NCBI RefSeq assembly: GCF_026004115.1
Contig: NZ_BPIM01000001.1
Coordinates: forward strand, 2,026,501-2,090,500
From: Meiothermus sp.
Lineage (GTDB): Bacteria; Deinococcota; Deinococci; Deinococcales; Thermaceae
DNA: 64,000 nt
Reading direction: 5' to 3'
The position numbers and the translations under genes were made by a program. How positions within the stretch are numbered: position 1 is the first letter of the stretch; every line of letters starts with the position of its first letter. The notes below the pieces were generated by a model, which saw only the letters and a list, made by a program, of their open reading frames with translations, was not told the DNA's origin and did no database searches. Positions 207 through 46,770 of this stretch are shown here, piece after piece.

Positions 207-1230
207 ATATAAAAAATTCGGTTGAGCAAAGAAAGGGGCTTCTAAACTGGATTTGTGAATAACCCAGAGAAGCCCAAAGACAGTGTAGCTTGCCGGAACT
301 GCGGAAGTGTGAAAGTCGAGTGTGGCGGCTATCGCAAGCGGAAGCTGCGAACCCTGAATGGCATAGAAGAAACCCGACTCAAACGCCTGCGCTGTGCTGG
401 GTGCAAACGGCAGATAAGGGTGGAATATACCCCAGAATGCCAACGTTATCGCTGGTATAGCCGCCTGGTGCAGGGTTTATTTGCCATCCTTGACAGCTAT
501 CGGGTTACCGAGGCGGTCAAAGCGGATATCGCTGCCTTGCTGGGTTATCCGATTGTGCTGGCCACCCGACTGGATTGGGCCCAAAGCGGTGGTGACCGGG
601 GACAGACCTTGCTCAAAGCAGAGAACGCACAGATCAAAGGGCTTATCCGCACGGTTTGTGTGGATGACTGGGTGTATGGACGGGATAGCCGGGGCCAGGG
701 TTATGGGGTCTGGGAAGCCCAGAGCGGCTGTCCTGTATCGGCTGATCTGGCCGAGGAGCGGGGGTTTGAACGGGTACGGGATTTGCTCAGCGATGGGTTG
801 CTTGATGATGTGGTTTCCGATGGGGCGCCCGAGATCGCCGAGGCTTTGCACTGGCTGGGGTCTAAAGTGCAACAGGTCAGGTGCTGGTTCCACCTGAGCA
901 GGGATATCCTGGGCAAGACCCCCCAAGATCAAAGGAATCGGCTGCAGCTGGAACTGCAAGTGCTGTTGGAGATGAAGACCTTGGGGGAGGCGGAAGCCAA
1001 CAACACCGCCGAAGTGGGGAATGGCAGGCTGTGGCGACGGCAAAAACGTAGAAACATCCGGTCTATTCCTAGAGCTAAGGACTGGCTGCAGATTGCCCTT
1101 TACCGTACTCGTCACCGTCCAATACAACATTCCCTCTCTGCTTGGCAACGGCTTTCAAACCAATCCTCGCCAAAATGTTGGTTTTTACCCATCATCACAC
1201 CACTTCGTTACTCAACCGAATTCTTTAGAT
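207..1230 (+). mobile_element. Insertion sequence with ~27-bp inverted ends and 5-bp target duplication
   Basis: The left end (207-233) and the reverse complement of the right end (1204-1230) share an imperfect inverted repeat with the core ATTCGGTTGAG; 18 of the first 20 bases match. GAGTC flanks both sides (202-206 and 1231-1235), consistent with a 5-bp target duplication, though the boundaries could move by a few bases. The element is about 1.02 kb and carries one transposase gene. It sits 12 bases upstream of the RDRM-like site of gyrA, on the side away from the gene. Confidence 0.75.
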
Positions 1231-1232
1231 GA
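255..1232 (+). CDS. DDE-type transposase with N-terminal zinc ribbon (possibly truncated)
   Basis: This 325-residue protein starts at a GTG. It has a CxxC...CxxC zinc ribbon at about residues 13-53, a helical linker, and a probable RNase-H-like DDE core with VDDWVYGRD near 136, SDGAPEIAEALHW near 192 and CWFHLSRD near 211. The motifs resemble MULE/ISL3-like transposases, but I cannot assign the family. The spacing between the FH motif and the next helical motif (NNTAEVGNGRLWRRQKRR) is short, which suggests an internal deletion. The C-terminus runs through the right inverted repeat and the TGA uses the flanking duplication, so the last ~40 residues may be out of the original frame. Confidence 0.65.
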   Translation: MNNPEKPKDSVACRNCGSVKVECGGYRKRKLRTLNGIEETRLKRLRCAGCKRQIRVEYTPECQRYRWYSRLVQGLFAILDSYRVTEAVKADIAALLGYPIVLATRLDWAQSGGDRGQTLLKAENAQIKGLIRTVCVDDWVYGRDSRGQGYGVWEAQSGCPVSADLAEERGFERVRDLLSDGLLDDVVSDGAPEIAEALHWLGSKVQQVRCWFHLSRDILGKTPQDQRNRLQLELQVLLEMKTLGEAEANNTAEVGNGRLWRRQKRRNIRSIPRAKDWLQIALYRTRHRPIQHSLSAWQRLSNQSSPKCWFLPIITPLRYSTEFFR

Positions 1233-1235
1233 GTC

Positions 1236-1276
1236 TAGTTCGCCGCCATCCGGCGCCGAACTAACCGAATCTGGTA
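1236..1276 (+). repeat. Family A repeat, right arm only
   Basis: This is the stem-loop arm (TAGTTCGCCGCC...GGCGCCGAACTA) and terminal GAATCTGGTA of the family A element found complete at 46317-46442. It begins right after the target duplication of the IS. Its end plus the following bases forms TATAAT (1275-1280), 23 bases before the start of the next gene. Confidence 0.7.
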
Positions 1277-1302
1277 TAATAAAGTGTTCTTTATGTAACT
1301 TT

Positions 1303-3390
1303 ATGCCGGAAACGCCTATGGGTTCTCCATCGCGAACTTTGGGTAGCCGGTTGCTAAACGCGCGCCGTCGCCGTTTTGTGGGGCGGGGCGCTGAGCTGGC
1401 GCTGTTGCGAACCACGCTCGAGGAAGCCGAGTTGCCCTTTGCGCTCTTGCATGTGTACGGACCAGGGGGGGTAGGGAAGACCGCCTTGCTGGGAGAGTTT
1501 GCTCGAGTAGGGGGGGAAGCCGGGGTTGGGGTAGTGCGGCTCGATGCCCGCAATATGGATTCCTCACCAGAGGGTTTCCTATCGGCCCTGAGGCTGGGAT
1601 TGGGTCTGGATGCAACGGCCTCACCGATCGAGTTCCTGTCGCGGCAAGGGCGTAGCCTGCTCCTGTTGGATACCTATGAAAACCTGACCCCACTGGACGC
1701 CTGGTTGCGCGAGACCTTTTTGCCACAATTGCCAGAGCATACCCTGGTGGTGTTTGCCGGGCGTAAACCGCCCGGTGCGGCCTGGCGCTCCGATCCCGGC
1801 TGGCGCGACCTGATCCGTACCCTTAGCCTGCGCAACCTGCGGCCCGAAGAAAGCCGTGAGTATCTGACCCGGCGTGGTGTGGTGGAAGAAAAGCATCAAG
1901 CTGTGCTGGACTTCACACACGGGCATGCGCTGGCGCTCTCGCTGGTGGCTGATGTGCTGGAGCAGGGCGCAGGCGAGTGGGACTTCGACCCAGGCCGTCA
2001 TCCCGATGTGGTGGCGGCTCTACTGGAACGCTTTGTGCAGGAAGTACCCAGCCCGATCCATCGCCAGGCCCTCGAAGCCAGCGCACTGGTGCGGTCTACC
2101 ACCGAAAGCTTGCTGGCCGAGTGTCTGCATATTGAAGATGTCCACCCATACTTTGAATGGCTGCGCAAATTGTCGTTTGTGCAATCGGGGCCGGTGGGGC
2201 TTTTCCCCCATGACTTGGCCCGCGAGGCGCTGGAAGCAGATTTGCGCTGGCGCAACCCCGACTGGAACGCGGAGCTGCACCGGCGGGCCAGGGGCTACTA
2301 CACCCGCCGCCTGCAAGAAACCCGTGGACTTGAGCAGCAGCACATCTTGTTCGATGATGTCTATCTGCATCGCCACAACCCCATGGTCAAGCCTTTTTTG
2401 GAGTGGGGCGAAACCGGCGGTGTGTTTGCTGAGCGGGGCCAGGCTGAAGACCACCCGGTGGTGCTCGCAATGATTGCTCGGCACGAAGGGCTAGAAGCCG
2501 CCAGGGTAGCGGCGCGCTGGCTGGAGTTGCAGCCTGAAGGGTTGACCGTTTACCGGGGGGTGGGTTCACAACCGGCGGGGTTCATGTTGATGTTGGGTTT
2601 GCACAAGGCCAGCCCGGCGGATCTGGCTGCCGACCCGGTGGCCCAGCAGGTGTGGAACTACACCGAGCGCTACGGGCCAGTACGCCCCGGTGAACAGGTT
2701 TCGCTTTTTCGCTTCTGGATGGAGGGTGAACGCTACCACATGGTTTCGTCGGTTCAGAGTGTGATTTTTCTCAATACAGTGCAGCACTATATCTCCAGTT
2801 CTAAACTGGCCTGGAGTTTTTTTGGCATTTCTGGGCCGGAGTTCTGGTTGCCGGCCTTTGCCTACATGAATATTCACCATGCCAGCGAGGTGGACTATGT
2901 CTCGGGAACCCATGCTATTGGAGTGTTTGCCCACGACTGGCGCAAGCAGCCGGTAGCGGCCTGGCTCGAGATGCTGGGCGAACGCGAGCTGGCCACGGAA
3001 CTCAACCCGGCCCAACTGCAAGACCATCGCCCTGCCCCGTTGGTAGTACTTTCCGAGCCCGAGTTTGAGGAGGCGGTCAAGAACGCCTTGCGGGACTTTA
3101 TGCGCCCGGAAGCGCTGGCGCACAACCCTTTGCTGCGCTCGAGGTTGCTGCTCGAGCCCACCCCCAAAGCCTTACGCACAGCTATCTGGGAAGCTGCGCA
3201 GACCCTCAAGGCCAACTCCAAGGACGAGAAGTTCTACCGCGCCCTGGAACGCACCTACCTCGAGCCTGCCGCCACCCAGGAACTGGCCGCTGAATTGCTG
3301 GGCCTGCCCTTCTCCACCTACCGGCGGCATCTGGTAGGAGCCGTCGAACGGGTGGTCAAACTGCTTTGGCAGCGCGAACTATCGGGGTAG
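1303..3390 (+). CDS. STAND/AAA-type signalling ATPase, possible transcription regulator
   Basis: The 695-residue protein has a P-loop GPGGVGKT at residues 53-60, a Walker B-like LLLLD at about 119-123, and downstream helical repeats, as in STAND NTPases that couple a stimulus to oligomerisation. The start FVGRGAELALL just before the P-loop is characteristic of this class. The C-terminal LGLPFSTYRRHL segment resembles a short DNA-binding helix pair, so it may control nearby genes; this is inference. I chose the ATG at 1303; ATG 1318 is an alternative. The longer reading back into the IS is unlikely. It stands alone, ahead of the cupin/SnoaL cluster. Confidence 0.65.
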   Translation: MPETPMGSPSRTLGSRLLNARRRRFVGRGAELALLRTTLEEAELPFALLHVYGPGGVGKTALLGEFARVGGEAGVGVVRLDARNMDSSPEGFLSALRLGLGLDATASPIEFLSRQGRSLLLLDTYENLTPLDAWLRETFLPQLPEHTLVVFAGRKPPGAAWRSDPGWRDLIRTLSLRNLRPEESREYLTRRGVVEEKHQAVLDFTHGHALALSLVADVLEQGAGEWDFDPGRHPDVVAALLERFVQEVPSPIHRQALEASALVRSTTESLLAECLHIEDVHPYFEWLRKLSFVQSGPVGLFPHDLAREALEADLRWRNPDWNAELHRRARGYYTRRLQETRGLEQQHILFDDVYLHRHNPMVKPFLEWGETGGVFAERGQAEDHPVVLAMIARHEGLEAARVAARWLELQPEGLTVYRGVGSQPAGFMLMLGLHKASPADLAADPVAQQVWNYTERYGPVRPGEQVSLFRFWMEGERYHMVSSVQSVIFLNTVQHYISSSKLAWSFFGISGPEFWLPAFAYMNIHHASEVDYVSGTHAIGVFAHDWRKQPVAAWLEMLGERELATELNPAQLQDHRPAPLVVLSEPEFEEAVKNALRDFMRPEALAHNPLLRSRLLLEPTPKALRTAIWEAAQTLKANSKDEKFYRALERTYLEPAATQELAAELLGLPFSTYRRHLVGAVERVVKLLWQRELSG

Positions 3391-3528
3391 GTATAGGCCG
3401 GTGAGTAGTTTTTGGTCTGTTGGATGAATACCCCCTTGTTGCATTTTTGTGCCTGGGCTGGGATGTACCAAAGGTAAAGTCGCCCTCGCCTGGGCAAACC
3501 AGGCGTATGATACGCCCAGCTACTGTTT

Positions 3529-4008
3529 ATGAACCTCCAGATTTCCGACCTCGAGCGCTGCTACTGGTGCGCGGGGTTGTTCTTGCAGTTCGTGGCCGAA
3601 TCGAGTGATACCGACGGCAGCTATACCCTTGTGGATGGCGTGATTCGTCAGGGCACTGAACCCCCGCCGCACGTGCACACCCATGAAGACGAGGAACTTT
3701 TTTTGCTCGAGGGCCGATTGCGCTATTGCTATGGCTCTGGCGAGGGGGATAGGACGGAAGGGGTGCTGGACCCCGGCGGGTACGTGTGGATGCCCCGCGG
3801 GCAGGAACATTATTTTGAATGCCTGACCCCCCAGGTACGGCTGTTGGTGCGGCTTTCGCCGGGGGGTCTGGAGCAAGCCTTCAAGGCGTTTGGGGTAGCA
3901 GCTACCGAGTCGCTGCTGCCCCCGCCGCGCGAGGCCGTTCCCGGCTTCGAGACCATCGCCGGCATTTTCGCCGAGCGCGGGGTGTATTTCGTGCGGCCGC
4001 AGGAGTAA
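3529..4008 (+). CDS. Cupin domain protein
   Basis: A 159-residue single-domain cupin. The metal-binding cupin motif is visible as PPPHVHTHEDEELFLLEG (about residues 46-63), with a second motif near GGYVWMPRGQEHYF (about 84-97). The fold binds a divalent metal and often acts as a dioxygenase or isomerase on small aromatic or polyketide substrates; the substrate is unknown. There is a TATGAT -10-like box about 20 bases upstream of the ATG and no clear Shine-Dalgarno. It is related in sequence to the exported cupin at 4806-5384. Confidence 0.75.
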   Translation: MNLQISDLERCYWCAGLFLQFVAESSDTDGSYTLVDGVIRQGTEPPPHVHTHEDEELFLLEGRLRYCYGSGEGDRTEGVLDPGGYVWMPRGQEHYFECLTPQVRLLVRLSPGGLEQAFKAFGVAATESLLPPPREAVPGFETIAGIFAERGVYFVRPQE

Positions 4009-4134
4009 AGGCTTGATTGTCTAAAACGCCCGCCCGCGCTGAGGGGTGGGTATTTTCTGGTCTGTAAAGTGAGCAAACCATTGGCGTAGCTTGTTCCTGC
4101 TTCGGGGGATGGATGGGTTTTTACGCCCTTGTCA

Positions 4135-4310
4135 TACCAAATCCACATGAACCCCTTGCCTTCTCCCTGGAGAGAGAAGGTGGCGACACCCCGACCGCGC
4201 TATTTACAAACAGCGATAGGAACAGGAACACGCTTGACTGCACCTGGGGTGTCGCCGGATGAGGGCGCTTGGGACGACCCTTAAAGCTAACTGTCCAAGT
4301 AAAGTTGGTA
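4135..4310. repeat. Family D MITE-like repeat
   Basis: The 176-bp segment begins TACCAA and ends TTGGTA, and is flanked by TCA on both sides (4132-4134 and 4311-4313). It holds an inner hairpin around CTTCTCCCTGGAGAGAGAAG (about 4161-4182). The TACC ends and the 3-bp TNA duplication match family A, so both may be mobilised by the same type of transposase. No coding capacity. Only this copy was seen. Confidence 0.55.
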
Positions 4311-4354
4311 TCACACCTCAAGGAATACAACATCGCTAGACCCACAAGGTCTTA

Positions 4355-4587
4355 TACCAGATTCGGTTAGTTCGGCGCCGGATGGCGGCGAACTAACAGG
4401 GCCGAAGTTATCCGCGTAGCGGAGGGCGATACCGCCCCTTGGAAGTTATCCGCGTAGCGGAGGGTGCAAGCCCCTTTGGAAGGGAGACGCTTTTTTCGCC
4501 GACCGTAAGGGAGGGGTGTGCTCTGGGATTCAAAAAGATAGCCTCTGGGGGTCTTTGGTTTGGATGATTATCTTTTTGAATCCGGTA
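4355..4587 (-). repeat. Family A MITE-like repeat with two 38-bp modules
   Basis: A full element in reverse orientation: TACCAGATTCGG end, GTTAGTTC palindromic arm, two copies of the GAAGTTATCCGCGTAGCGG module (4404-4481), then the ATTCAAAAAGATA / TATCTTTTTGAAT stem and the terminal CCGGTA. Flanks are TTA (left) and TAA (right), one mismatch from a perfect 3-bp duplication. Confidence 0.75.
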
Positions 4588-4636
4588 TAAAACACCTGCC
4601 GGAAGAGGCAAGTGTTTGTGGGAAACGAGATGAGTT

Positions 4637-4680
4637 GCCCACAAAGGCTGCCTACAGCGGTTGGCTGTGGGCGGTTTTTT
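4637..4680 (+). terminator. Terminator-like hairpin upstream of exported cupin gene
   Basis: GCCCAC (4637-4642) pairs with GTGGGC (4667-4672) and is followed by GGTTTTTT. A second small hairpin (4589-4618) sits just before it. It could end a transcript entering from the family A region, or attenuate the gene at 4806. Confidence 0.5.
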
Positions 4681-4805
4681 GGGTCGGTTGACGAGTGGGT
4701 TTAATGGCAGGGTTTTGCTGAGCAGTTTTTGAACTGGCGGATGAACAATTCCTGTAGCTATAACTTGTTTCAGTTCGGGAGACCCTGAACCTATTGGAGG
4801 AACCT

Positions 4806-5384
4806 ATGAAACAAGACCGCCGTTCCGCCCTCAAGCAACTCACTGCCGCCGGACTGGGACTGGCCCTATCGGGCAAGGTCGGCACTGCCCTGGCCCAAGC
4901 CAACCTCAAGCCCGCTTTCGGGAGCCGCGCCGCCCTCGCCAACAGCGTGTGGTTCAACGGCGCACTGTTTAGTGTGCTGGCCGACAAGGCCACCACAGGG
5001 GGTTCATATGCCCTGATGGACGTGCGGGTGCGCCAGGGCTTCGAGGCCCCACCTCACGTACACAATGGCGAGGACGAGATCTTCTTTATCCAGGAAGGCG
5101 AGGTCACCTTCACCTCCGGCAACGTGGTAACGGAAGCCAAGGCGGGCGACCATGTGTTCCAGCCCAGGGGGGTGCCCCACTTCTTCAAGCTCAAGACCCC
5201 CACCGCACGGATGCTGGTGACGTTCACGCCGGGGGGGCTCGAGGAAGCATACCGCCGCTTGGGCGTGCCAGCCCAGCGGCTGGACTTGCCCTCGCCCCCA
5301 GCCGGCCCTCCCACCCCGGAGCAACTGGCCACGGTAACCAGGGTCTTTGGTGAGTTCGGTTTTGTGCTGTTGCCCCGCCCCTGA
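4806..5384 (+). CDS. Exported cupin domain protein (Tat signal)
   Basis: 192 residues. The N-terminus MKQDRRSALKQLTAAGLGLA carries a twin-arginine signal with a hydrophobic stretch and an AxA-like site (ALAQA), so the protein is probably exported folded, possibly with metal bound. The cupin motif PPHVHNGEDEIFFIQEG lies near residues 79-95. The start at 4806 is favoured by TTGGAGG 7-8 bases upstream; an ATG 12 bases earlier lacks a site. It resembles the cytoplasmic cupin at 3529 and heads the gene run to 10277. Confidence 0.8.
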   Translation: MKQDRRSALKQLTAAGLGLALSGKVGTALAQANLKPAFGSRAALANSVWFNGALFSVLADKATTGGSYALMDVRVRQGFEAPPHVHNGEDEIFFIQEGEVTFTSGNVVTEAKAGDHVFQPRGVPHFFKLKTPTARMLVTFTPGGLEEAYRRLGVPAQRLDLPSPPAGPPTPEQLATVTRVFGEFGFVLLPRP

Positions 5385-5464
5385 CCTGAATCTGGCTGGG
5401 TAGTTGTCTGGATGTTAGCCCACCAAAATGAATAGCCAAAGAGTCACAAAAGGAGAATTGCTCG

Positions 5465-5878
5465 ATGTCCACGACTCTCAACCCAATGGACTTCGCGATC
5501 CGCTTTTTCAATGGCCAGGATGAGCTGCAAGGATCGCTCAGGCCAGAGCTACTCGCACCCGCCTATAGGGCAGAGATCATGGGATTTCCACCTATGGATG
5601 CGGCCGGACATGGCGAGTTTGGTCGAGCCTTCTACAACGCATTCCCGGATCTCTATCATTCAATTGATGAAACCCAAGTCACCGACAACGGCATCGCGGT
5701 GCGCTTCACCTTGCGCGGCACACACACGGCGCCGTTCATGGGCATTCCGGCCAGCAACCGTGCTATTGCTGTATCGGCCATTGCCCTGCTGACGATCGTG
5801 AATGGCCAGGTGACCCACCTTCATGCCATCTTTGATCAACTAGGCATGATGCGTCAGCTTGGCGTGGTGCCCTCGTAG
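5465..5878 (+). CDS. SnoaL-like/ester cyclase family protein
   Basis: A 137-residue protein of the NTF2-like alpha+beta barrel type. The pattern FPDLYHSIDETQVTDNGIAVRFTLRGTHTAPFMGIPAS is typical of SnoaL-like polyketide cyclases and steroid-isomerase-like enzymes. It is preceded by AAAGGAG. It is followed after 5 bases by the hydrolase gene and is one of three NTF2-fold genes in this cluster (also 8307 and 9864). The substrate is unknown. Confidence 0.75.
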   Translation: MSTTLNPMDFAIRFFNGQDELQGSLRPELLAPAYRAEIMGFPPMDAAGHGEFGRAFYNAFPDLYHSIDETQVTDNGIAVRFTLRGTHTAPFMGIPASNRAIAVSAIALLTIVNGQVTHLHAIFDQLGMMRQLGVVPS

Positions 5879-5883
5879 AACTC

Positions 5884-6744
5884 GTGCCTTTGTGGCTGGC
5901 TAGCGCAGCAGAACTCATGTTCCCCAAACGTTTCAAATCCTCGGATGGGTTGAGCCTCTCATGTTACGGGATTCAGCCCCCCGGCTTTAACCGTGGCCGG
6001 GTAGTCCTGGTTCACGGCCTGGGCGATCACGGCCGCAGCTTGCCTTACCGCAACCTGTCGGAGGCGTTGTGTGCCCAGGGGTTTGCTACTTATGGGTTTG
6101 ATCTGCGCGGACACGGGCAGTCGGAAGGCCCGCGCATGTATGTCGAGGCGTGGGCCAGTCTGCGCGATGACCTGAGGCGCTTTGTAGATTTGGTGCGGCA
6201 GGAAGACCCAACCCCCCCGCTCTTCCTGGTCGGGCTCAGCTTGGGGGGCTTGCTGGTGCTCAACTATGCCCAGCACCACCCCCAGGGTCTGAGCGGGGTG
6301 GTGGCGGTAGCGCCTGCGCTGGATGCCTCGGGGGTTCCGCCCTTGATCAAGGCCATGATGCCCCTGCTGTCGCGCCTGCTGCCTCGGGTCCGGGTCAATC
6401 CGGGCCTTAGCCTGTCCGGCATCACCCGAGACCCTGCCATAGCGCGGCAATACACTACCGACCCTCACTTTCAAACCCATACCACCCCACGCCTGGCCTC
6501 CGAAGTTCTGAGGGCGATGGAGGAAACCCGTGCCAGGGCGTCCCGCTTAAGTCTGCCCATGCTAATCCTGCACGGCGAGGCCGACACCCTGGTGCGCCCG
6601 CAGGGCAGTGCCGACTTTTTTGCCCGGGTTGGGGCTACCGACAAACAGCGCCTGACCTACCCCGATGCCTACCACAACCTGTTCCTCGAGCCCAACCGTG
6701 CCCAGGTGTTTGCCGACATTGGGGGCTGGCTCGAGTGGCATTAG
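5884..6744 (+). CDS. Alpha/beta hydrolase, monoacylglycerol lipase-like
   Basis: 286 residues from a GTG start; an ATG at 5917 (residue 12) is a plausible alternative, and neither has a clear ribosome site. The nucleophile elbow GLSLGG is near residue 119, the oxyanion segment VHGLGDHG near 43, and the catalytic Asp (GEADTLV) and His (AYHNLF) follow in the expected order near 237 and 260. This is the serine hydrolase class that cleaves lysophospholipids or monoacylglycerols. The position in the SnoaL/cupin run suggests hydrolysis of an ester in that pathway, which is inference. Confidence 0.8.
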   Translation: MPLWLASAAELMFPKRFKSSDGLSLSCYGIQPPGFNRGRVVLVHGLGDHGRSLPYRNLSEALCAQGFATYGFDLRGHGQSEGPRMYVEAWASLRDDLRRFVDLVRQEDPTPPLFLVGLSLGGLLVLNYAQHHPQGLSGVVAVAPALDASGVPPLIKAMMPLLSRLLPRVRVNPGLSLSGITRDPAIARQYTTDPHFQTHTTPRLASEVLRAMEETRARASRLSLPMLILHGEADTLVRPQGSADFFARVGATDKQRLTYPDAYHNLFLEPNRAQVFADIGGWLEWH

Positions 6745-6922
6745 GGCGAATTCAGGAACTAACTTTGGGGTGAGACGAGCGGTAATACCATCTGGGACGT
6801 GGTTTGTCATCCTACTATACCTCGAATCAAACGGCAAGCCGCCCGAGACTCAGAACGAGCAGTTTTTGACCTGGATATTGAACAGCGTCTCGGGACAAAG
6901 TGTGACGCACCAGGAGGAACAG

Positions 6923-8281
6923 ATGAAAACAGGAAAACATGCGGTGGTGATTGGTGGGAGCATGGCGGGGCTTCTGGCAGCGCGGGCGCTCTCGGAGCAG
7001 TTTGAACAGGTGACGATACTCGAGCGCGACCACTTCCCGCCCCCAGGCCAGCAGCGCAAAGGGGTGCCCCAGGGCCGCCACGCCCACGGAGTGCTGGCCC
7101 AGGGGGCACAGATCTTCGAGGGGTTCTTTCCCGGTTTGACCCAGGAACTGCTGGAACAGGGGGCGCTCGGCAGCGATATCATCCAGGATGGTTACTGGTA
7201 CCAGAACGGCGGTTTCCATGCCCAGTTTGATAGCGGATTGAAGGGCTTGCTGGTCAGTCGTCCACTGCTGGAGGGTTCGATCCGACAGCGTGTACTCTCA
7301 CTGGGGAATGTTAAAGCCCTATCGAGGGTCAACGTCAGGGGTTTGCTCAGCGAGAACGGGCGGGTGGTAGGTGTAAAACTCGATGGCGACGGCCTTTACG
7401 AACTGCGAGCCGATCTGGTGGTAGATGCCAGCGGGCGCGGCTCGCAAGCGCCGAAGTGGCTCGAGGACATGGGCTACGAGCGGCCAAAGCAAGAAGAGGT
7501 GCGGATTGATCTGGCCTACGCCACCCGCATCTACCGCCGCAGCCCCCAGGACTTTGGCGGCAAGGATGCCTTTGTGATTGGTTCCAACGCCCCCCTTAAG
7601 CGCGGTGGGGTGGTGCTGCACCTCGAGGGCCAACGCTGGATCGTCACGCTGGCAGGCTTCCTGGGCGACCACCCTCCTATCGACGAACAGGGTTTCCTCG
7701 AGTTTGCCCGTACTCTTCCCGTTCCCGATATCTACAACCTGATTAAGGAGGCCGAGCCGCTCTCTGAGATTGGTGCTTACAAGTTTCCTGGCAGCCAGCG
7801 CCGCCGCTATGAAAAGCTGGCTCGCTTTCCTCGGGGCTTCCTGGTGATGGGGGATGCGATGTGCAGCTTCAACCCCATCTTTGGTCAGGGCATGACCGTG
7901 GCTGCCAGCCAGGCCCGGCTGCTTTTGGAGGTGTTGAAAGCCGGAAGCGAGAACCTGGCCCAGCGCTTCTACAAAAAAGCTGCCGTGCTGGTGGATGGGC
8001 CCTGGAGCATCGCGGTGGGGGCCGACCTGAGCTACCCCGAGGTGGAGGGGCCGCGCAGTCCGATGGTCAACTTCATTAACTGGTACGTGGCCAAACTGCA
8101 CATTGCGGCCCGCCGGGACCCCGCCCTGGTACTGGCCTTCCAGGAAGTGGCCAATCTGATGGCCCCCCCACCCAGCCTGCTGGCTCCAGGTACTGCCCTG
8201 CGGGTGCTGTGGGGTAACCTGTTCCCCCGCAAGCCGACGGTAGCCCGCAGGCCAGGGGTCTCCCCCCAGGCAGGCGATTGA
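6923..8281 (+). CDS. FAD-dependent oxidoreductase/monooxygenase
   Basis: 452 residues. An N-terminal Rossmann FAD motif, VVIGGSMAGLLAARAL (about 8-23), is followed by an acidic ribose-binding residue in ILERD; the GD motif VMGDAM near residue 310 completes the FAD site. This is the fold of PHBH-type aromatic hydroxylases and geranylgeranyl reductases. The start at ATG 6923 is set by CCAGGAGGAAC just upstream; earlier in-frame codons lie over the previous gene's 3' end. It is the likely redox enzyme of the cluster. Confidence 0.85.
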   Translation: MKTGKHAVVIGGSMAGLLAARALSEQFEQVTILERDHFPPPGQQRKGVPQGRHAHGVLAQGAQIFEGFFPGLTQELLEQGALGSDIIQDGYWYQNGGFHAQFDSGLKGLLVSRPLLEGSIRQRVLSLGNVKALSRVNVRGLLSENGRVVGVKLDGDGLYELRADLVVDASGRGSQAPKWLEDMGYERPKQEEVRIDLAYATRIYRRSPQDFGGKDAFVIGSNAPLKRGGVVLHLEGQRWIVTLAGFLGDHPPIDEQGFLEFARTLPVPDIYNLIKEAEPLSEIGAYKFPGSQRRRYEKLARFPRGFLVMGDAMCSFNPIFGQGMTVAASQARLLLEVLKAGSENLAQRFYKKAAVLVDGPWSIAVGADLSYPEVEGPRSPMVNFINWYVAKLHIAARRDPALVLAFQEVANLMAPPPSLLAPGTALRVLWGNLFPRKPTVARRPGVSPQAGD

Positions 8282-8306
8282 GAAGGCCTACCCGTAGGAG
8301 GAAACC

Positions 8307-8729
8307 ATGAGCAATATAGAAACGCTACGCAAAGCCCACCAAGCCTTTAGCGCCGGTAACCTGGACGAAGCAACCAAGGTGCTGGCCCCGGATGGCACCA
8401 TGACCGACCACGGGCGAGGCCAGGTCTACCGCAGCCGCGCGGAGTTCCGCCAGATGCTGGCCGGTTTTGTCGCCATGGCCGCCAATATCAAAATTGTGGA
8501 TGCCCACTATATTGAGGCCGGCGACTGGGTCACGGCGCGGTTCCGGGCCGTTGGAATTCAGGACGGCCCCATGTCCGGCACGCCTTTTGGGCCCAGCCAC
8601 AAACCTTTTTCGCTGGACGTGTGCGAGGTCTGGCGCTTTGGCCCAGGTGGCCTGGCCATCGAAGGTCACAACTATTCCGACGGCCTGGGCTTGCTGCTGC
8701 AACTGGGGCACCTGACCCTACCCGCTTAG
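8307..8729 (+). CDS. SnoaL-like/NTF2-fold protein
   Basis: 140 residues with a GGAGG site 6 bases before the ATG. The opening LRKAHQAFSAGNLDEATKVLAPDGTMTDHGRG matches the NTF2-like family used by SnoaL-type cyclases. The gene lies 25 bases after the FAD enzyme and 14 bases before the cupin-SRPBCC gene, so the three are probably co-transcribed. Confidence 0.75.
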   Translation: MSNIETLRKAHQAFSAGNLDEATKVLAPDGTMTDHGRGQVYRSRAEFRQMLAGFVAMAANIKIVDAHYIEAGDWVTARFRAVGIQDGPMSGTPFGPSHKPFSLDVCEVWRFGPGGLAIEGHNYSDGLGLLLQLGHLTLPA

Positions 8730-8743
8730 AGAAGGAGACACCC

Positions 8744-9820
8744 ATGGCCCATCCTGGCACAACCCTCCACGACCCCATCAGCGGGGTTCAACTCACCTTT
8801 ATCCAGACCGCCCGCGACACCCAGGGCAGGGGCTTCGCGGTGGAAATCCTCTACCCGCCGGGACCGGGAAAGAAAGGCCAGCAGCCCCACTTCCACACTA
8901 GCTTTGACGAGCAGTTCGAGGTGCTTGCGGGTACAGCTACCTACCTTTTGGACGGGGTAGAGCAGACCGTGGGGGCGGGGAACCGCTTTAGCATCCCGCA
9001 GAATATTCCCCACCTCAACCCCTACAACGCGGGGTCGGAGCCCCTGCACCTGCGCCAGTGGGTCGAGCTTCCGCAGCCAGACCGCAGGATGCTCGAGGCC
9101 TTCGAAGATTTTCTCGAGACTGGCTTTGGTCTGGCCGCCGAGGGTCGGCGCCTGGGCTTGCTACAAAAGGCGGTGCTGTTTCAGACCCTTCAGCCCGGCT
9201 CCTACATGGTGGGCATTTCCGCTCCGCTTCAGCGGCTAATATTCGGAGTCCTGGCTGCATTGGGGCGGATGCTGGGTTACCGGCCCCGCTACGCCCGCTT
9301 TGCGAGCTCCGAGCCTGCCCCCAATCACAAGCTGGCCCACGAGTACCACTTCTACGACCGCTGGCTGATTCCCGCTTCAATCGAGCAGGTCTGGGAGAGC
9401 ATCACCCAGATCGAGCTCTACACCCAGTGGTGGGGCCAGGTCTACGACGAGGTGGAACGGCTTAGCGAGGGCCATCAAAACGGGGTTGGAGCCAGAACCA
9501 GGGTCAAGGTGCATGGTTCACTGCCTTACAAGCTGAGCTTTGTGGTTGAAAGTGTAGAAATGGAATGGCCTCAGATGCTGGTGGTCAAGACCACAGGTGA
9601 CCTGGTTGGCACCGGTGTGTGGCGTTTACGCAGCGTGGAGGGCGGCACCGAGGTCGGCTACGACTGGCGGCCCAGGGCTGAGTTCCTGCTGGTGCGGCTG
9701 CTCTCGCCTTTTCTCAAGCCTTTGTTTCGCTATAACCACGACTGGTGCATGCAGCAAGGTGAGAAAGGGCTGCTGGAGTGGTTGGCCGGGGCTCGCCCAA
9801 TGAAGTCGGCAAGGGCTTGA
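8744..9820 (+). CDS. Fusion of cupin and SRPBCC (polyketide cyclase-like) domains
   Basis: 358 residues with GAAGGAG before the ATG. Residues about 30-110 form a cupin (PHFHTSFDEQFEVLAG, then NRFSIPQNIPHLNPY). After a helical linker, residues about 200-345 form an SRPBCC/START barrel: YHFYDRWLIPASIEQVWESI is the usual opening of that fold. The two halves are each found alone in small-molecule pathways. Joining a metal cupin to a hydrophobic-ligand barrel suggests that one domain binds or cyclises what the other oxidises; this is inference. Confidence 0.75.
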   Translation: MAHPGTTLHDPISGVQLTFIQTARDTQGRGFAVEILYPPGPGKKGQQPHFHTSFDEQFEVLAGTATYLLDGVEQTVGAGNRFSIPQNIPHLNPYNAGSEPLHLRQWVELPQPDRRMLEAFEDFLETGFGLAAEGRRLGLLQKAVLFQTLQPGSYMVGISAPLQRLIFGVLAALGRMLGYRPRYARFASSEPAPNHKLAHEYHFYDRWLIPASIEQVWESITQIELYTQWWGQVYDEVERLSEGHQNGVGARTRVKVHGSLPYKLSFVVESVEMEWPQMLVVKTTGDLVGTGVWRLRSVEGGTEVGYDWRPRAEFLLVRLLSPFLKPLFRYNHDWCMQQGEKGLLEWLAGARPMKSARA

Positions 9821-9863
9821 GTACCGCGCCTACGCCTGAAGACCCAAGATGTAGGAGGAATCA

Positions 9864-10277
9864 TTGAACAAGCTTGAAGTCGTTCAGAACAATATCGAAG
9901 TGGCCCAAGCTATCTACCAGCGTTTTGGACAGGGAGATATTCCCGGGGTGATGGCCCTGCTCCACCCTGATGTTGACTGGGTCTGGTATGGCCCCCCGGA
10001 GATTCCCTGGGCCGGCACCCATAAGGGTCACCAGGATATGCTTAAGTTCTTTGGGGCCATTGGGGCCACGGTGAGCGTGGAGGCTTACGAACCCCGCGAG
10101 TTTTTGCCAGGGGAAAACGGCCTGGTGACTGTGTTGGGCTGGCAGCGGGTGCGGGTCAAGGCTACCCAGAAAGCCTGGGAAACCCACTGGGCCCACATCT
10201 GGACGATTCAAGACGGTTTGGTGGTTCGCAACAGGGAGTTTTACGACACCGTGCCGGTATTAGAGGCTTTTAGTTAA
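9864..10277 (+). CDS. SnoaL-like/NTF2-fold protein (TTG start)
   Basis: 137 residues. The TTG at 9864 is chosen because GTAGGAGGAA lies right before it and no ATG fits. VAQAIYQRFGQGDIPGVMALLHPDVDWVWYGP is a clear SnoaL-like N-terminus. It ends the plus-strand cluster that began at 4806. The DUF1501 gene faces it from the other strand. Confidence 0.75.
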   Translation: MNKLEVVQNNIEVAQAIYQRFGQGDIPGVMALLHPDVDWVWYGPPEIPWAGTHKGHQDMLKFFGAIGATVSVEAYEPREFLPGENGLVTVLGWQRVRVKATQKAWETHWAHIWTIQDGLVVRNREFYDTVPVLEAFS

Positions 10278-10334
10278 ACCTACCGAACCGGAAGTTGGTG
10301 CCGTCTAACAGTTTGAAGCACCTGCCCGGTAGGC

Positions 10335-11507
10335 TCACCACAAGGCCACCGGGCTGAAATCCGCCCCCAGCACCTCTTTGGGGTTGGCCGCAATCCAGTT
10401 CAGGGCGGTGGCGTAGACGTTGCGGAAATCGGTCTGGTATTTGAGCGCGTTGAGCTCGAGGTCTTCTAAGTCGGGTTCGCTACCGAACAACCCGCCCTTC
10501 ACGCCACCTCCGAGTACCAACATCAGCCCACCCTCTCCGTGGTCGGTGCCAAAGGAGGCGTTTTCGGCGACCTGTCGTCCAAACTCGCTGAAAACCATAA
10601 TCATTGCGTCCCTATCCCGACCAATGGCCTTCATATCCGCACGAAAGGCGGCGGTGGCCTGGGCCACATAGCCCAGGAGCTCAGCCTGGCGCGGGGGTTG
10701 GCCAGCGTGGGTGTCCCAGCCGCCCAGGGTGGTGTAGTAGACGCTGCTGCCCAGCCCCCCGGCAATCATGCGGGCGATGTCGCCCATGCTTCGGCCAAAG
10801 GCGTTGTCGGGGTACTGGGCGCGGTTTTTCACCTCGCGCAGCCGCCCGATTTTGTCCAGGGCCCCCCTCAGCGAGAGCATGGCCTGCCGTACCTGCTCGG
10901 CGGTACCGCCGCGGGCTAGGCGGGCCTCCTTGTCGAACGCTTCCTCGAACTGCCGAGGCAGCCGAATACTAAAGGCATCAATGCTGCTAATAGCAGGTGC
11001 GCTGCGTCGCTCGCCCATCTGGGCCTGGGGGGTGGCTCCGCCCAGGAAGGTGTCGCAGAAAGGGTCGTCCTGGAGATCGCCCCAGCGGCCCAGCCAGCCG
11101 GTTTCTTGCCTGCGGCTGGGGTCGGCGGTGTGCCAGATGGAAGTGGAAATAAAGTGACTGCGGTTGGGGTTGGGATAGCCCACCTGCGGGATGATGGCCA
11201 GTTCGCCGTTGTTCCACATTGACATCAGTGGCCTTAGTTCGGGGTGAAAGCCCAGTTTTTGCCCCTTGGCTCCCAAATCCAGGACTTCCTCGCGTTTGAT
11301 GGCGATGTTGGGGCGCAGGCGGTAATATAGTTCGTTGCGGTAGGGAATCAAGGTGTTGAGCTGGTCGTTGCCGCCAAACAGGTTGATAACCACCAGGATT
11401 TTGTCCCTGGACTGCGCCGCCAGAGCCGTTCTGGAGAGCAGCGAGGGTGCGCCCTGCCCCAGGGCCAGGGTCAGTAGGGATTTTTGGATAAAGTCGCGTC
11501 GGTTCAT
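10335..11507 (-). CDS. DUF1501 protein, Tat-exported
   Basis: 390 residues beginning MNRRDFIQKSLLTLALG, a twin-arginine signal, then the DUF1501 hallmark ILVVINLFGGNDQLNTLIP. The fold resembles sulfatases and alkaline phosphatases, and the family is exported. The C-terminal part has GGWDTHAGQ and FSEFGRQVAENAS...TDHGEGGL, expected for the metal-binding region. It lies 31 bases downstream of the DUF1800 gene; the two families co-occur widely, so they probably act together at the cell surface. The molecular function is not established. Confidence 0.85.
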   Translation of the reverse strand: MNRRDFIQKSLLTLALGQGAPSLLSRTALAAQSRDKILVVINLFGGNDQLNTLIPYRNELYYRLRPNIAIKREEVLDLGAKGQKLGFHPELRPLMSMWNNGELAIIPQVGYPNPNRSHFISTSIWHTADPSRRQETGWLGRWGDLQDDPFCDTFLGGATPQAQMGERRSAPAISSIDAFSIRLPRQFEEAFDKEARLARGGTAEQVRQAMLSLRGALDKIGRLREVKNRAQYPDNAFGRSMGDIARMIAGGLGSSVYYTTLGGWDTHAGQPPRQAELLGYVAQATAAFRADMKAIGRDRDAMIMVFSEFGRQVAENASFGTDHGEGGLMLVLGGGVKGGLFGSEPDLEDLELNALKYQTDFRNVYATALNWIAANPKEVLGADFSPVALW

Positions 11508-11538
11508 GTAAACCTCGTCAAGGGTTCTAAAGCTGACG

Positions 11539-12738
11539 TTACAGGAGCTGAGCCTCTGGCTTAACCAGGGCCAAAGCACCCCCGGCGTTGTCCATGAATA
11601 CCTCGAGGTCGAGACCGCGCTCCCGACCGGCAAAACCTGCCAGCAGGTTGAGCCGCGTGAGGAAGGGCGACTCGGCCAGCCAGGCCAGGCCCCCGTCCCA
11701 CCCCGCTACATTGGGCGGGTCGAAAGGAATTTGTCCCATGGCTGCTAAAGCCTGGTAAAGCCCCCGTCCGGGTCGCTCCTCAAAGTCCACCCTGCTGACC
11801 CCGGCGGCATGCCACAGCCCCACCAGGTACTCCAGCGGGCTTTTGATGAGGGCATTGCGGTACTCGGGATCGTAGAAGGCTTCGTGGGTGAAGAGCCAGT
11901 ACAGAAACTCTTTTGTCCCGCTGCTGCGGAAGACCCGCGCTCCCTCCTGCACCAGCGGCTCGGGGGGGTCGGGGCAAAGATAAAATTTCAGCAGTTTGCG
12001 CCCTACAAATTCGTAGGTCTTGGGGTGGGCAATCAGGATTTCCAGCACCTCCTCGCCCGATCTGATGCGCTTGCCCAGAAAGGTTTTCTCGCCCGGGTCG
12101 TGCCAGTTGCGGTTGAAAACAAACTCGTAGGCCACATTGGCACTGGCCTCGCGGGGCCGCTGGTTGCCGGGAAGCCGCACCGTCCAGCCGGTGAAAGCCC
12201 GCGCTGCTTCCAGGATGTCCTGCTCGGTATAGTGGCCGGGCCCGATGGTGTATAGCTCGAGCAGTTCCCGCGCCCAGTTCTGGTTGGGGTGTTCCTTGCG
12301 ACTCTGGGCGTTGTTGAGGTAGAGGAGCATGACCGGATTGCGGGCGATAGCCTTCAGAAGTTCGCCGTAGGGCCCGTAGCCCAGTTGCCGGAAGGTGGCA
12401 AACTGGTTCCAGAAGTCTATGCCTTGGGCCCCCATTGTCTCGCGGAACTCTGAGGTCAGGTGGCCATGCCAGAAGAGCACCATCCGCTCGGCGGCGGGGG
12501 TAGGGGTGGTAAGCCAGTGGTTCAGCCAGAGCTGGCTGATTTCGCGGTGCTGCTGGACGCGTTCGTTGCGGGTGGCGGCGGTGGTGTAGACGGGGGCCGG
12601 GGCCGGGTCGCGCAGCAGGTAGTCTACGGCGGCCTCGAGGCCCATCTCCACGAGTTGTTGGGCCTCCTGCTTTCGCCCTCTTGCGGCGGCCCGGCGCAGC
12701 AGGTGGGTGGCCTGGGGGTAGGTCAGTGCTCGAGCCAT
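11539..12738 (-). CDS. DUF1800 domain protein
   Basis: 399 residues, mostly helical. Typical DUF1800 features include HLLRRAAARGRKQEAQQLVEMG at the start, LFWHGHLTSE near 90, NWARELLELYTIGPGHYTEQDI and a C-terminal NVAGWDGG. There is no convincing signal peptide. It is the upstream partner of the DUF1501 gene and probably shares its transcript. A GAGGAAATTC stretch precedes the ATG. The biochemical role is unknown. Confidence 0.8.
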   Translation of the reverse strand: MARALTYPQATHLLRRAAARGRKQEAQQLVEMGLEAAVDYLLRDPAPAPVYTTAATRNERVQQHREISQLWLNHWLTTPTPAAERMVLFWHGHLTSEFRETMGAQGIDFWNQFATFRQLGYGPYGELLKAIARNPVMLLYLNNAQSRKEHPNQNWARELLELYTIGPGHYTEQDILEAARAFTGWTVRLPGNQRPREASANVAYEFVFNRNWHDPGEKTFLGKRIRSGEEVLEILIAHPKTYEFVGRKLLKFYLCPDPPEPLVQEGARVFRSSGTKEFLYWLFTHEAFYDPEYRNALIKSPLEYLVGLWHAAGVSRVDFEERPGRGLYQALAAMGQIPFDPPNVAGWDGGLAWLAESPFLTRLNLLAGFAGRERGLDLEVFMDNAGGALALVKPEAQLL

Positions 12739-12895
12739 CGTGAATTTCCTCTTGGCTAGAAAATAGCCTACCTACCTGAAATCAGCCTTAAGGAAGATAA
12801 CGAACGGCTAGAGGACAGAGATCATCAGGGGTATGGAGCCCTCGCCTTTGCGCTGCCCGCATAATCTGGCATAAAATCCGCGACAAAGGAGCGTT

Positions 12896-23535: not shown

Positions 23536-23661
23536 GGCCCTGTTAGTTCGCCGCCATCCGGCGCTGAACTAACCGAATCTGGTATGACCAGATCATAGAA
23601 CTGCTTTTTTCATGATTCCAACCGGATTCTAGGCTAAGGTCAGAACCATACAATAGAGCTC

Positions 23662-33072: not shown

Positions 33073-33339
33073 TACCAGATTCGGTTAGTTCGGCGCCGGA
33101 TGGCGTCGAACTAACAGGGCCGAAGTTATCCGCGTAGCGGAGGGCGTAAGCCCCTTGGAAGTTATCCGCGTAGCGGAGGGCGTAAGCCCCTTTGGAAGTT
33201 ATCCGCGTAGCGGAGGGCGTAAGCCCCTTGGAAGGGAGACGCTTTTTTCGCCGACCGTTCGGGAGGGGTGTGCTCTAGGATTCAAAAAGATAGCCTCTGG
33301 GGGTCTTTGGTTTGGATGATTATCTTTTTGAATCCGGTA
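33073..33339 (-). repeat. Family A MITE-like repeat with three modules, abutting sufU
   Basis: 267 bp from TACCAGATTC to GAATCCGGTA, reverse orientation, flanked by TTA on both sides (33070-33072 and 33340-33342). Three tandem 36- to 38-bp modules lie at 33122-33232. The right duplication is only two bases before the sufU ATG, so the element replaced or now supplies the sufU upstream region. Confidence 0.85.
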
Positions 33340-46057: not shown

Positions 46058-46770
46058 GTGGACTTTCTTCTAGTACTGCTAGTTTATCTGACGGGTTCGA
46101 TTAATTTCCCTATCCTGGAGGGTCGCTTACGGGGTTGGGACATCCGCGAGCGTGACCTGGCCGGTACGTCGGGGGTTTTCGCCAACTCGTAAGAGTTTGG
46201 GGGCTGGGGGTGGGGGTGCTCGAGGTGGGCAAGGGGATGCTGGCAGCCTGGCTGGCGGTTTTTTCGGCTAGTTTTTGTGCCGTGTCCCTTTGTGCTCTGG
46301 CGGTGGTGGCCGGTCATACCGGATTCAAAAAGATAATCATCCAAACCAAAGACCCCGAGAGGCTATCTTTTTGAATCCTAGAGCACTCCCTTCGGTCGGG
46401 TTAGTTCGCCGCCATACGGCGCCGAACTAACCGAATCTGGTATCACATCTGGCCTGTATGCTTCGGCTTTCGCAGGGGTGGAGGCTTGGCGGTGGAGGTA
46501 TTGTTTTGGGTTCGCGAGCGAGACCGCATTCAAGGGAGCAGCTCCATCCTGTTTACGGCTATTCTGGTTTTGCTCTATCTGGCCGATGTGCTACGAATGG
46601 ATGTCGGGGCCCCCTATACCCTTTTTGCGCTGGGGGTCATGGCGTTGCGGGGTGCGCCGGTGCGTACTGGCTGTTGTGTGGTACCGCTCAGATAAAGAGG
46701 AGCCAAAGGCCAGAAAAGTGAGGTCAGGAGAGGCCAATGTAGTTCAAATACCACTGCACAAGGTCTGTAC
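46058..46770 (+). pseudogene. plsY: plsY-like glycerol-3-phosphate acyltransferase, disrupted
   Basis: From a GTG at 46058 the reading is VDFLLVLLVYLTGSINFPIL, then GWDIRERDLAGTSGVF, matching the PlsY N-terminus. One base is missing near 46181 (TTCGCC for TTCCGCC). After it the frame continues LVRVWGLGVGVLEVGKGMLAAW to ALAVVAGH, where a family A repeat (46317-46442, TCA duplication) is inserted. Past it the gene resumes HIWPVCFGFRRGGGLAVE and LFTAILVLLYLADVLRM, with at least one more shift before LAVVWYRSDKEEPKAR. PlsY makes lysophosphatidic acid from acyl phosphate, so another functional copy is expected elsewhere. Boundaries are approximate. Confidence 0.75.
46317..46442 (+). repeat. Family A MITE-like repeat inserted in plsY-like pseudogene
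   Basis: 126 bp, TACCGGATTC to GAATCTGGTA, flanked by TCA on both sides (46314-46316 and 46443-46445). It has both hairpins and no module. Removing it together with one TCA rejoins the GH-IWP codons of the interrupted gene, which confirms the element ends and the target duplication. Confidence 0.93.

Follow-up and report, generated by a model that had tools for sequence, protein, structure and literature searches.

What holds together a run of cupin, SnoaL-fold and flavin-dependent enzyme genes in a Meiothermus genome, and what could such a set of enzymes do? The genes lie in a 64,000-nucleotide stretch of Meiothermus sp. (assembly GCF_026004115.1, contig NZ_BPIM01000001.1, forward-strand positions 2,026,501 to 2,090,500), which we call the window and whose numbering is used throughout. 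An initial annotation of this sequence described eight enzyme genes on the plus strand between positions 3529 and 10277 as a possible small-molecule pathway, with a STAND-type ATPase upstream. All eight genes were found at that place, with Pfam support. Rather than a fixed pathway, we tentatively propose, with slightly less than even confidence, that a STAND regulator is joined to an exchangeable set of enzymes that would epoxidize and further process an unsaturated hydrophobic compound.

Association of the STAND gene with cupin and flavoenzyme genes

Three genes, all on the plus strand like the rest of the cluster, form the core of the locus. The STAND gene (1318 to 3390) encodes 690 amino acids with an AAA_16 match at the N terminus (PF13191, E = 2.3e-8) and ends 138 bp before cupin A (3529 to 4008; PF07883, E = 1e-8), a cupin in which no signal was seen and which on inspection shows an H-x-H, E and H metal-ligand pattern. 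The third gene (6923 to 8281) encodes a flavin adenine dinucleotide (FAD) monooxygenase, hereafter FAD, of the wider MonCI/Lsd18 group. Farther downstream are two SnoaL-like genes, SnoB and SnoC, flanking a cupin-SRPBCC fusion, and between cupin A and FAD lie a second cupin carrying a twin-arginine translocation (Tat) signal, a third SnoaL-fold gene (SnoA) and an alpha/beta hydrolase gene.

The upstream STAND protein belongs to this unit and is no bystander, because rare homologs of STAND, cupin A and FAD co-occur far above expectation. Among 111 genomes of the order, close homologs, to which the co-occurrence sets were confined, were found in 7 genomes for STAND, 7 for cupin A and 8 for FAD. 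STAND and cupin A occur together in 6 of the 111 (0.44 expected), and STAND with FAD and cupin A with FAD in 5 each (0.50 expected in both cases), by a simple hypergeometric test that ignores kinship and genome size. Both STAND and FAD are present in five genomes, which represent two families of the order and measure 3.35 to 6.0 Mb; many relatives are smaller (2.1 to 2.4 Mb in one genus), which is a confounder. Close SnoB, close SnoC and the full-length cupin-SRPBCC fusion each occur in 3 genomes, and STAND is present in every one of these. At a threshold of E = 1e-3, the counts were 39 genomes for STAND (mostly through its ATPase part), 34 for the cupin, 10 for SnoB, 5 for SnoC and 19 for cupin-SRPBCC; the separate order-wide queries covered proteins other than SnoA and the Tat cupin. 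One extracted locus (L060), on the same contig as another (L042), was excluded from the census of open reading frames (ORFs) and from the later locus set.

Linkage shows the same genes in several combinations. STAND and cupin A lie within about 7 kb of each other in the window's own genome (G000, 3.35 Mb), in G034 of the same genus, and in G041, G096 and G097; STAND and FAD share a contig in G000, G034 and G097, and cupin A and FAD are linked in G000, G034 and G025. The order in G034 is STAND-cupin A-FAD-SRPBCC, and in G026 an SRPBCC-like gene, but no FAD, comes after cupin A. The initial annotation had set conserved gene order against scatter in relatives, and the outcome is mixed: the blocks STAND-cupin A, cupin A-FAD, STAND-FAD and SnoB-cupin-SRPBCC-SnoC recur in the order, and the rare cluster genes share genomes even where they are unlinked, but FAD, SnoB and SnoC come together only in G000 among the 111 genomes, and the complete gene set was seen there only. 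A second module also lies beside STAND (L063 6050-10622, L064 1273-5856, L062 1-1091, L077). In G096 it comprises DUF4331, a TPR protein, a HupE/UreJ-like and a signal-peptidase-like gene, followed by cupin A; its homologs keep the same order in G097.

Beyond the order, plasmids of Rhodococcus opacus PD630 and R. sp. WAY2 carry a STAND gene directly before a FAD homolog (46% identity). These come from hand-chosen plasmid records, 11 of 163 with FAD homologs (one unannotated) and 6 of 11 with STAND (one unannotated); the Nonomuraea STAND region is an unannotated record. A gene of the SgcJ/EcaC family adjoins FAD in 2 of the 10 annotated FAD regions, both from Streptomyces, and is followed in one by an epoxide hydrolase gene; in six further annotated regions, selected by their FAD match, FAD has neither an SgcJ/EcaC-family gene nor STAND beside it. 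In Kitasatospora, STAND precedes MFS, SRPBCC, carotenoid oxygenase and 4-hydroxybenzoate 3-monooxygenase genes, in Nostoc it lies near TauE/SafE and DUF4331 genes on the opposite strand, and its neighbors in S. scopuliridis match no pattern.

A broader sample came from the Mycobacteriales, where 39 STAND matches were found in 30 of 397 genomes at E = 1e-30 or better. We took 28 stretches (361 kb, 30 STAND genes), leaving out the 9 weakest-listed matches, and compared them with the window proteins by tblastn (E = 1e-3). Ten of the stretches contained 6 FAD, 3 cupin and 1 SnoaL homologs, all no more than 0.9 kb from STAND and none elsewhere in the 28, and every one of the six FAD homologs is the first gene downstream of STAND. 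On the assumption of one gene per kb, the rough probability of finding all six FAD genes in the 30 positions just downstream of STAND is 2e-7, with two close kin counted separately. Of the six, only the homolog in G195 (37%) comes close to the group of the window protein. Scans of 20 neighboring proteins from 16 of the 28 stretches, with gene calls that are rough where GC content is high, added a luciferase-like monooxygenase, an epoxide hydrolase, an old-yellow-enzyme relative and putative cyclases. In G501 and G462 (L118, L119) two STAND genes stand tail to tail.

Layout of the locus and exchange of its genes

The partners of this core are known in varying detail. The Tat cupin (4806 to 5384; PF07883, E = 1.3e-12; 88% identical to its G041 homolog) is predicted to be exported, and the Tat signal that the initial annotation had noticed clears the TIGR01409 cut-off narrowly (17.5 versus 16.7 bits). 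SnoA (5465 to 5878; PF07366, E = 4.4e-20) and SnoB (8307 to 8729; PF12680, E = 5.5e-14; 80% identical in G041, 63% in G097) score 72.2 and 47.3 bits against a PF07366 gathering score of 28.4. SnoC (9864 to 10277, TTG start; 90% in G041, 77% in G096) is NTF2-like and falls below that score, SnoaL_2 alone being above its cut-off (PF12680, E = 1.4e-11). The best PDB match of SnoA is 8ysb, a "predicted ester cyclase" (E = 1.4e-11); SnoC matches 3fgy (5.6e-17) and TerC (3.8e-13). The fusion (8744 to 9820) joins PF07883 (4.7e-8) to PF03364 (4.2e-7) and is also fused in G041 (72%) and G025 (54%). The hydrolase (5917 to 6744) is of the Hydrolase_4 type (PF12146, E = 1.5e-69); its top-scoring homolog elsewhere in the order is 38% identical, and relatives at E = 1e-30 occur in 32 of the 111 genomes, G000 included. 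A homologous hydrolase-FAD association was considered and dropped, as tblastn did not match the window hydrolase to any of the hydrolase genes that lie near FAD in L056, L049 and L073.

Spacing argues against a single transcription unit for the eight enzyme genes, because cupin A and the Tat cupin are 797 bp apart, with a repeat copy between them, and a 178-bp gap lies between the hydrolase and FAD. FAD, SnoB, cupin-SRPBCC and SnoC are tightly spaced (gaps of 25, 14 and 43 bp). The good ribosome sites of the initial annotation hold for six of the eight genes, where inspection found a clear Shine-Dalgarno sequence, but not for cupin A or the hydrolase. Promoter-like sites were no more frequent than in shuffled sequence (2 versus 1.7 expected), terminator-like sites were fewer than in shuffles (5 versus 8.7), and an Rfam scan of positions 900 to 5500 gave no match up to E = 0.1.

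The repeat (4350 to 4590, about 240 bp) has at least 38 further copies of at least 187 bp in the genome, at 80 to 96% identity, a lower bound from scoring 40 of 297 candidates. Its head is a GC-rich hairpin with stem copies at 1236-1265, 4366-4395, 23544-23573, 33084-33113 and 46402-46431, one such head sitting just 5' of the STAND gene; the repeat is also present in G025, of another genus. The ORF 5' of STAND (255 to 1232) we take to be transposase-like.

The sister genome G041 shares this site with the window, and gene content there has been exchanged. Nucleotide identity is 80% over 1270-4138, 80% over 4715-5393 and 79% over 8296-12739, the last of these covering SnoB, the fusion and SnoC as well as the genes after them. 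In G041 the interval from the Tat cupin to SnoB contains only two hydrolase pieces and a different SnoaL gene (35% identical to SnoA), and FAD was not found in its assembly, which is 92% complete. A fixed pathway is thus unsupported, since at this site G041 has a different gene in place of SnoA, a truncated hydrolase and no FAD. In G041 a DUF4331 gene follows cupin A, and another contig opens on the final part of a TPR-type gene; since that TPR-type gene follows DUF4331 in G096, G097 and G023, the two contigs probably adjoin.

The main rival to an exchangeable enzyme set arises here. The site could be a hotspot of accretion, in which STAND, cupin A and FAD form a real unit and SnoA, the hydrolase, the Tat cupin, SnoB, the fusion and SnoC have gathered by chance, each with some unrelated small task. 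Sharply different content at the same site in sister genomes would fit this, as would the repeat copy that splits the locus, the wide spread of hydrolase relatives in the order, and the fact that the SnoB-cupin-SRPBCC-SnoC block is common to G041 only, where FAD and most of the hydrolase are missing. Chance gathering accords poorly with the confinement of close SnoB, close SnoC and the full-length fusion to STAND-bearing genomes, with the tight spacing and strong ribosome sites from FAD through SnoC, and with G096, where SnoC follows a SnoaL gene behind FAD. We regard accretion as unlikely overall, though a serious contender.

The FAD protein and its polyether relatives

Pfam returned weak matches of the FAD protein to several FAD families. 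A phmmer search of the PDB instead found MonCI and Lsd18/LasC, the epoxidases of the monensin and lasalocid pathways, at E = 3.4e-65 to 1.1e-63, with the next entry at 0.0075 and an identity of about 31%. An AlphaFold model built from 8 rows (mean predicted local distance difference test [pLDDT] score of 73; residues 85-106 and 367-452 low) gave Foldseek ranks 1 to 9 that are all Lsd18 or MonCI, at template-modeling (TM) scores of 0.80 to 0.83; rank 10 stood at 0.59, with kynurenine monooxygenases next at about 0.6 and human squalene epoxidase at 0.58. Both sequence and predicted fold thus place the protein closer to MonCI/Lsd18 than to other class A monooxygenases and identify it as a distant member of this polyene-epoxidase group. 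In a tree of 24 FAD rows, MonCI and Lsd18 lying outside the row set, the window protein groups with G034 and G025. Two partial copies were also seen: a second, shortened FAD gene in G025 (L043 3213-3944) that matches pieces of the window protein only, and the Deinococcus plasmid copy (L073), which matches it in three pieces.

The likeness extends to the active site. With positions taken from PMC12144862 and the alignment read by eye, Lsd18 R51, A70, H71, Y218 and V252 are identical and V342 is I, so that the flavin-binding motif (GGGMAG-type, here GGSMAG), the equivalents of Arg51 and of the flavin-stacking His71 (R35 and H55), and the Y, V and V-to-I of the stereo-subpocket are shared; pocket residues I72, W74 and H239 are replaced by G, L and N. 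Two motifs are reported, in PMC10560226, only in polyether epoxidases. The first, RKGx1PQx2RHx3Hx4LWSx5GA, is incomplete in the window sequence RKGVPQGRHAHGVLAQGA, which keeps the RKGxPQxRHxH framework without the LWS part; the second, AFNPx1x2GHGMSx3x4A, is likewise incomplete in SFNPIFGQGMTVAA, without the GHGMS part. None of the 24 FAD rows, the window included, has the full motifs; they have the framework only. By the tests applied, the protein is epoxidase-like without being a polyether enzyme, and its putative epoxidase activity is suggested by its relatives.

The initial annotation had noted that such enzymes act on polyketide or terpenoid-like compounds and had seen no synthase. An unsaturated or terpenoid-like compound is plausible, because the closest relatives of FAD epoxidize or bind farnesyl acetate: Lsd18 epoxidizes it according to PMC12144862, and PDB entry titles describe MonCI solved with farnesyl acetate and its monoepoxide. 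The lack of a synthase also held up. A search for the ketosynthase PF00109 gave one full match in the window's genome, in a 424-aa frame, and two partial matches of 36 to 38 positions in 393-aa frames, with no polyketide synthase (PKS)-like ketosynthase; across nine genomes (the eight with FAD and G041), ketosynthase frames reach at most 512 aa, with 1 to 2 full or near-full matches per genome.

These observations bear on two further explanations. The epoxidation of farnesyl acetate by Lsd18, its presence in solved MonCI, one SQS_PSY-family gene elsewhere in the genome and the lack of a PKS-like ketosynthase would all suit an enzyme that tailors the cell's own isoprenoids, such as a carotenoid or the menaquinone side chain. 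Pigments and quinones that the cell makes for itself ought to be widespread, yet FAD is found in only 8 of 111 genomes, and no isoprenoid gene was recognized among the nine cluster proteins, which makes this improbable. SnoaL-fold proteins resemble in fold the epoxide hydrolases of polyether pathways, and this resemblance, with the relation of FAD to MonCI/Lsd18, could suggest a remnant or compact polyether-type pathway of epoxidation and epoxide opening. In monensin and lasalocid biosynthesis, however, a modular PKS supplies the polyene, and the locus is not such a pathway, because both exclusive motifs are missing and the sole full ketosynthase match lies in a 424-aa frame. The three pocket positions differ as well, and MonB/Lsd19 chains are absent from the PDB matches of SnoA, SnoB and SnoC (E up to 0.1). 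A polyether remnant is therefore largely refuted and very improbable.

A proposed exchangeable enzyme set under a STAND regulator

For the reading that we favor, a STAND regulator with exchangeable enzymes, a sequence of events can be drawn up, with the SnoaL, SRPBCC, hydrolase and cupin roles suggested by their fold families. On binding ATP and a signal, STAND would use its C-terminal tail to switch on the adjacent enzyme genes. FAD, with NAD(P)H and O2, would epoxidize an alkene of a hydrophobic, possibly isoprenoid-like compound, and the SnoaL-fold proteins, the SRPBCC part and the alpha/beta hydrolase would then open, isomerize or cyclize the product. The cupins might be metal enzymes or binders for the same task, one of them outside the membrane. 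Around the STAND-cupin/FAD core, enzyme partners would be interchangeable among lineages, a pattern that fits an accessory role in dealing with variable compounds, through detoxification, catabolism or a minor tailored metabolite, better than a fixed biosynthesis.

The ATPase domain, a strongly conserved C-terminal segment and the gene positions suggest that STAND is a local ATP-dependent regulator. The family is conserved full-length in Deinococcota, Rhodococcus, Kitasatospora, Streptomyces and Nostoc (11 rows, 34 to 85% identical to the window protein). Its Pfam matches up to E = 0.05 are AAA_16, ATPase_2 and AAA_22 only, with no BTAD, NB-ARC or TPR match. The middle domain (residues 370 to 600), conserved across phyla, matches nothing in Pfam up to E = 1 or among PDB sequences up to E = 10; a GNAT-like reading of it, a guess, was dropped when neither database gave support. 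The tail may contain a conserved helix-turn-helix (HTH). Thus, of the initial annotation's STAND ATPase with a possible DNA-binding tail, the ATPase and its position stand, the gene is now counted in the unit, and the HTH assignment is weak, because non-HTH families score as well.

Several observations weigh against the proposed reading. HTH matches in the tail are few (HTH_20 in 3 of 11 rows, HTH_28 and Sigma70_r4_2 in 1 each; best E = 0.0022) and absent from the window's own row, a Bestrophin-like family matches equally well (0.0019), and structure prediction of STAND was poor (pLDDT 39 from 2 rows). FAD occurs without STAND in G001, G008 and G109, and STAND without FAD in G003 and G041. Linkage is also broken in places: STAND sits on a different contig from the cupin A-FAD-SRPBCC run in G025; in G097, where STAND and FAD are linked, cupin A adjoins a different, contig-broken STAND gene; and in G096, FAD-SnoaL-SnoC-cupin occupy one contig, with STAND and cupin A on another, four genes apart. 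The hydrolase-FAD link elsewhere holds at the superfamily level only. Eight of the 10 annotated plasmid regions with FAD, a hand-chosen sample, lack an adjoining STAND gene, and the Deinococcus plasmid with FAD carries no other cluster homolog. Among the Mycobacteriales, 18 of the 28 stretches have no cluster homolog, five of the six FAD neighbors are remote (25 to 27%) and outside the window's group, two of the six are close kin, and STAND neighbors also include MFS, ABC, phytochrome kinase, CbiX, PAC2 and methyltransferase genes.

Other STAND proteins act in defense and the distribution here is patchy, yet an anti-phage system of STAND with enzyme partners is barely credible, given that many neighbors are metabolic enzymes and that PADLOC models, scanned against STAND, FAD, the hydrolase and the fusion, gave a sole STAND-LmuB match at chance level (E = 0.0073, 12.6 bits, 30 residues).

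Known systems offer partial parallels to the proposed STAND-controlled enzyme set. MalT and AfsR are STAND transcription regulators; the window protein likewise combines an ATPase domain with a possible DNA-binding end beside metabolic genes, but it lacks TPR, BTAD and NB-ARC, its middle domain is of no known family, and an HTH is only weakly matched. ECF41 sigma factors are accompanied by oxidoreductase-type neighbor genes, and so form another case of a regulator recurring beside exchangeable small-molecule enzymes. They bear a SnoaL-like extension (PMC8999054), whereas in the window the SnoaL proteins are separate genes and the regulator is unrelated to ECF41. Streptomyces plasmid natural-product clusters, including that of the C-1027 plasmid, carry a FAD homolog (44 to 47%) among many biosynthetic genes, of which the window has none; in the C-1027 plasmid stretch no SgcJ-type gene lies within 6 kb of it. 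The enzyme families and the regulator type are already known. Among the matches listed from the open-access literature, titles and abstract openings held no description of this cluster or of the STAND-FAD pair, and the gene combination and the STAND middle domain were not found described.

A bolder extension, which we consider speculative and rather doubtful, is that a new STAND family with its own middle sensor domain serves Deinococcota, Actinomycetota and perhaps Cyanobacteriota as the fixed component of a module, combined with an interchangeable oxygenase, cupin or SnoaL enzyme, and that in Thermaceae it drives PKS-free epoxidation and epoxide opening on an isoprenoid-like compound. If the proposed reading is correct, an uncharacterized STAND family would be tied to a definable chemistry, and MonCI-like epoxidases would act outside polyketide pathways, with a thermophilic member for biocatalysis.

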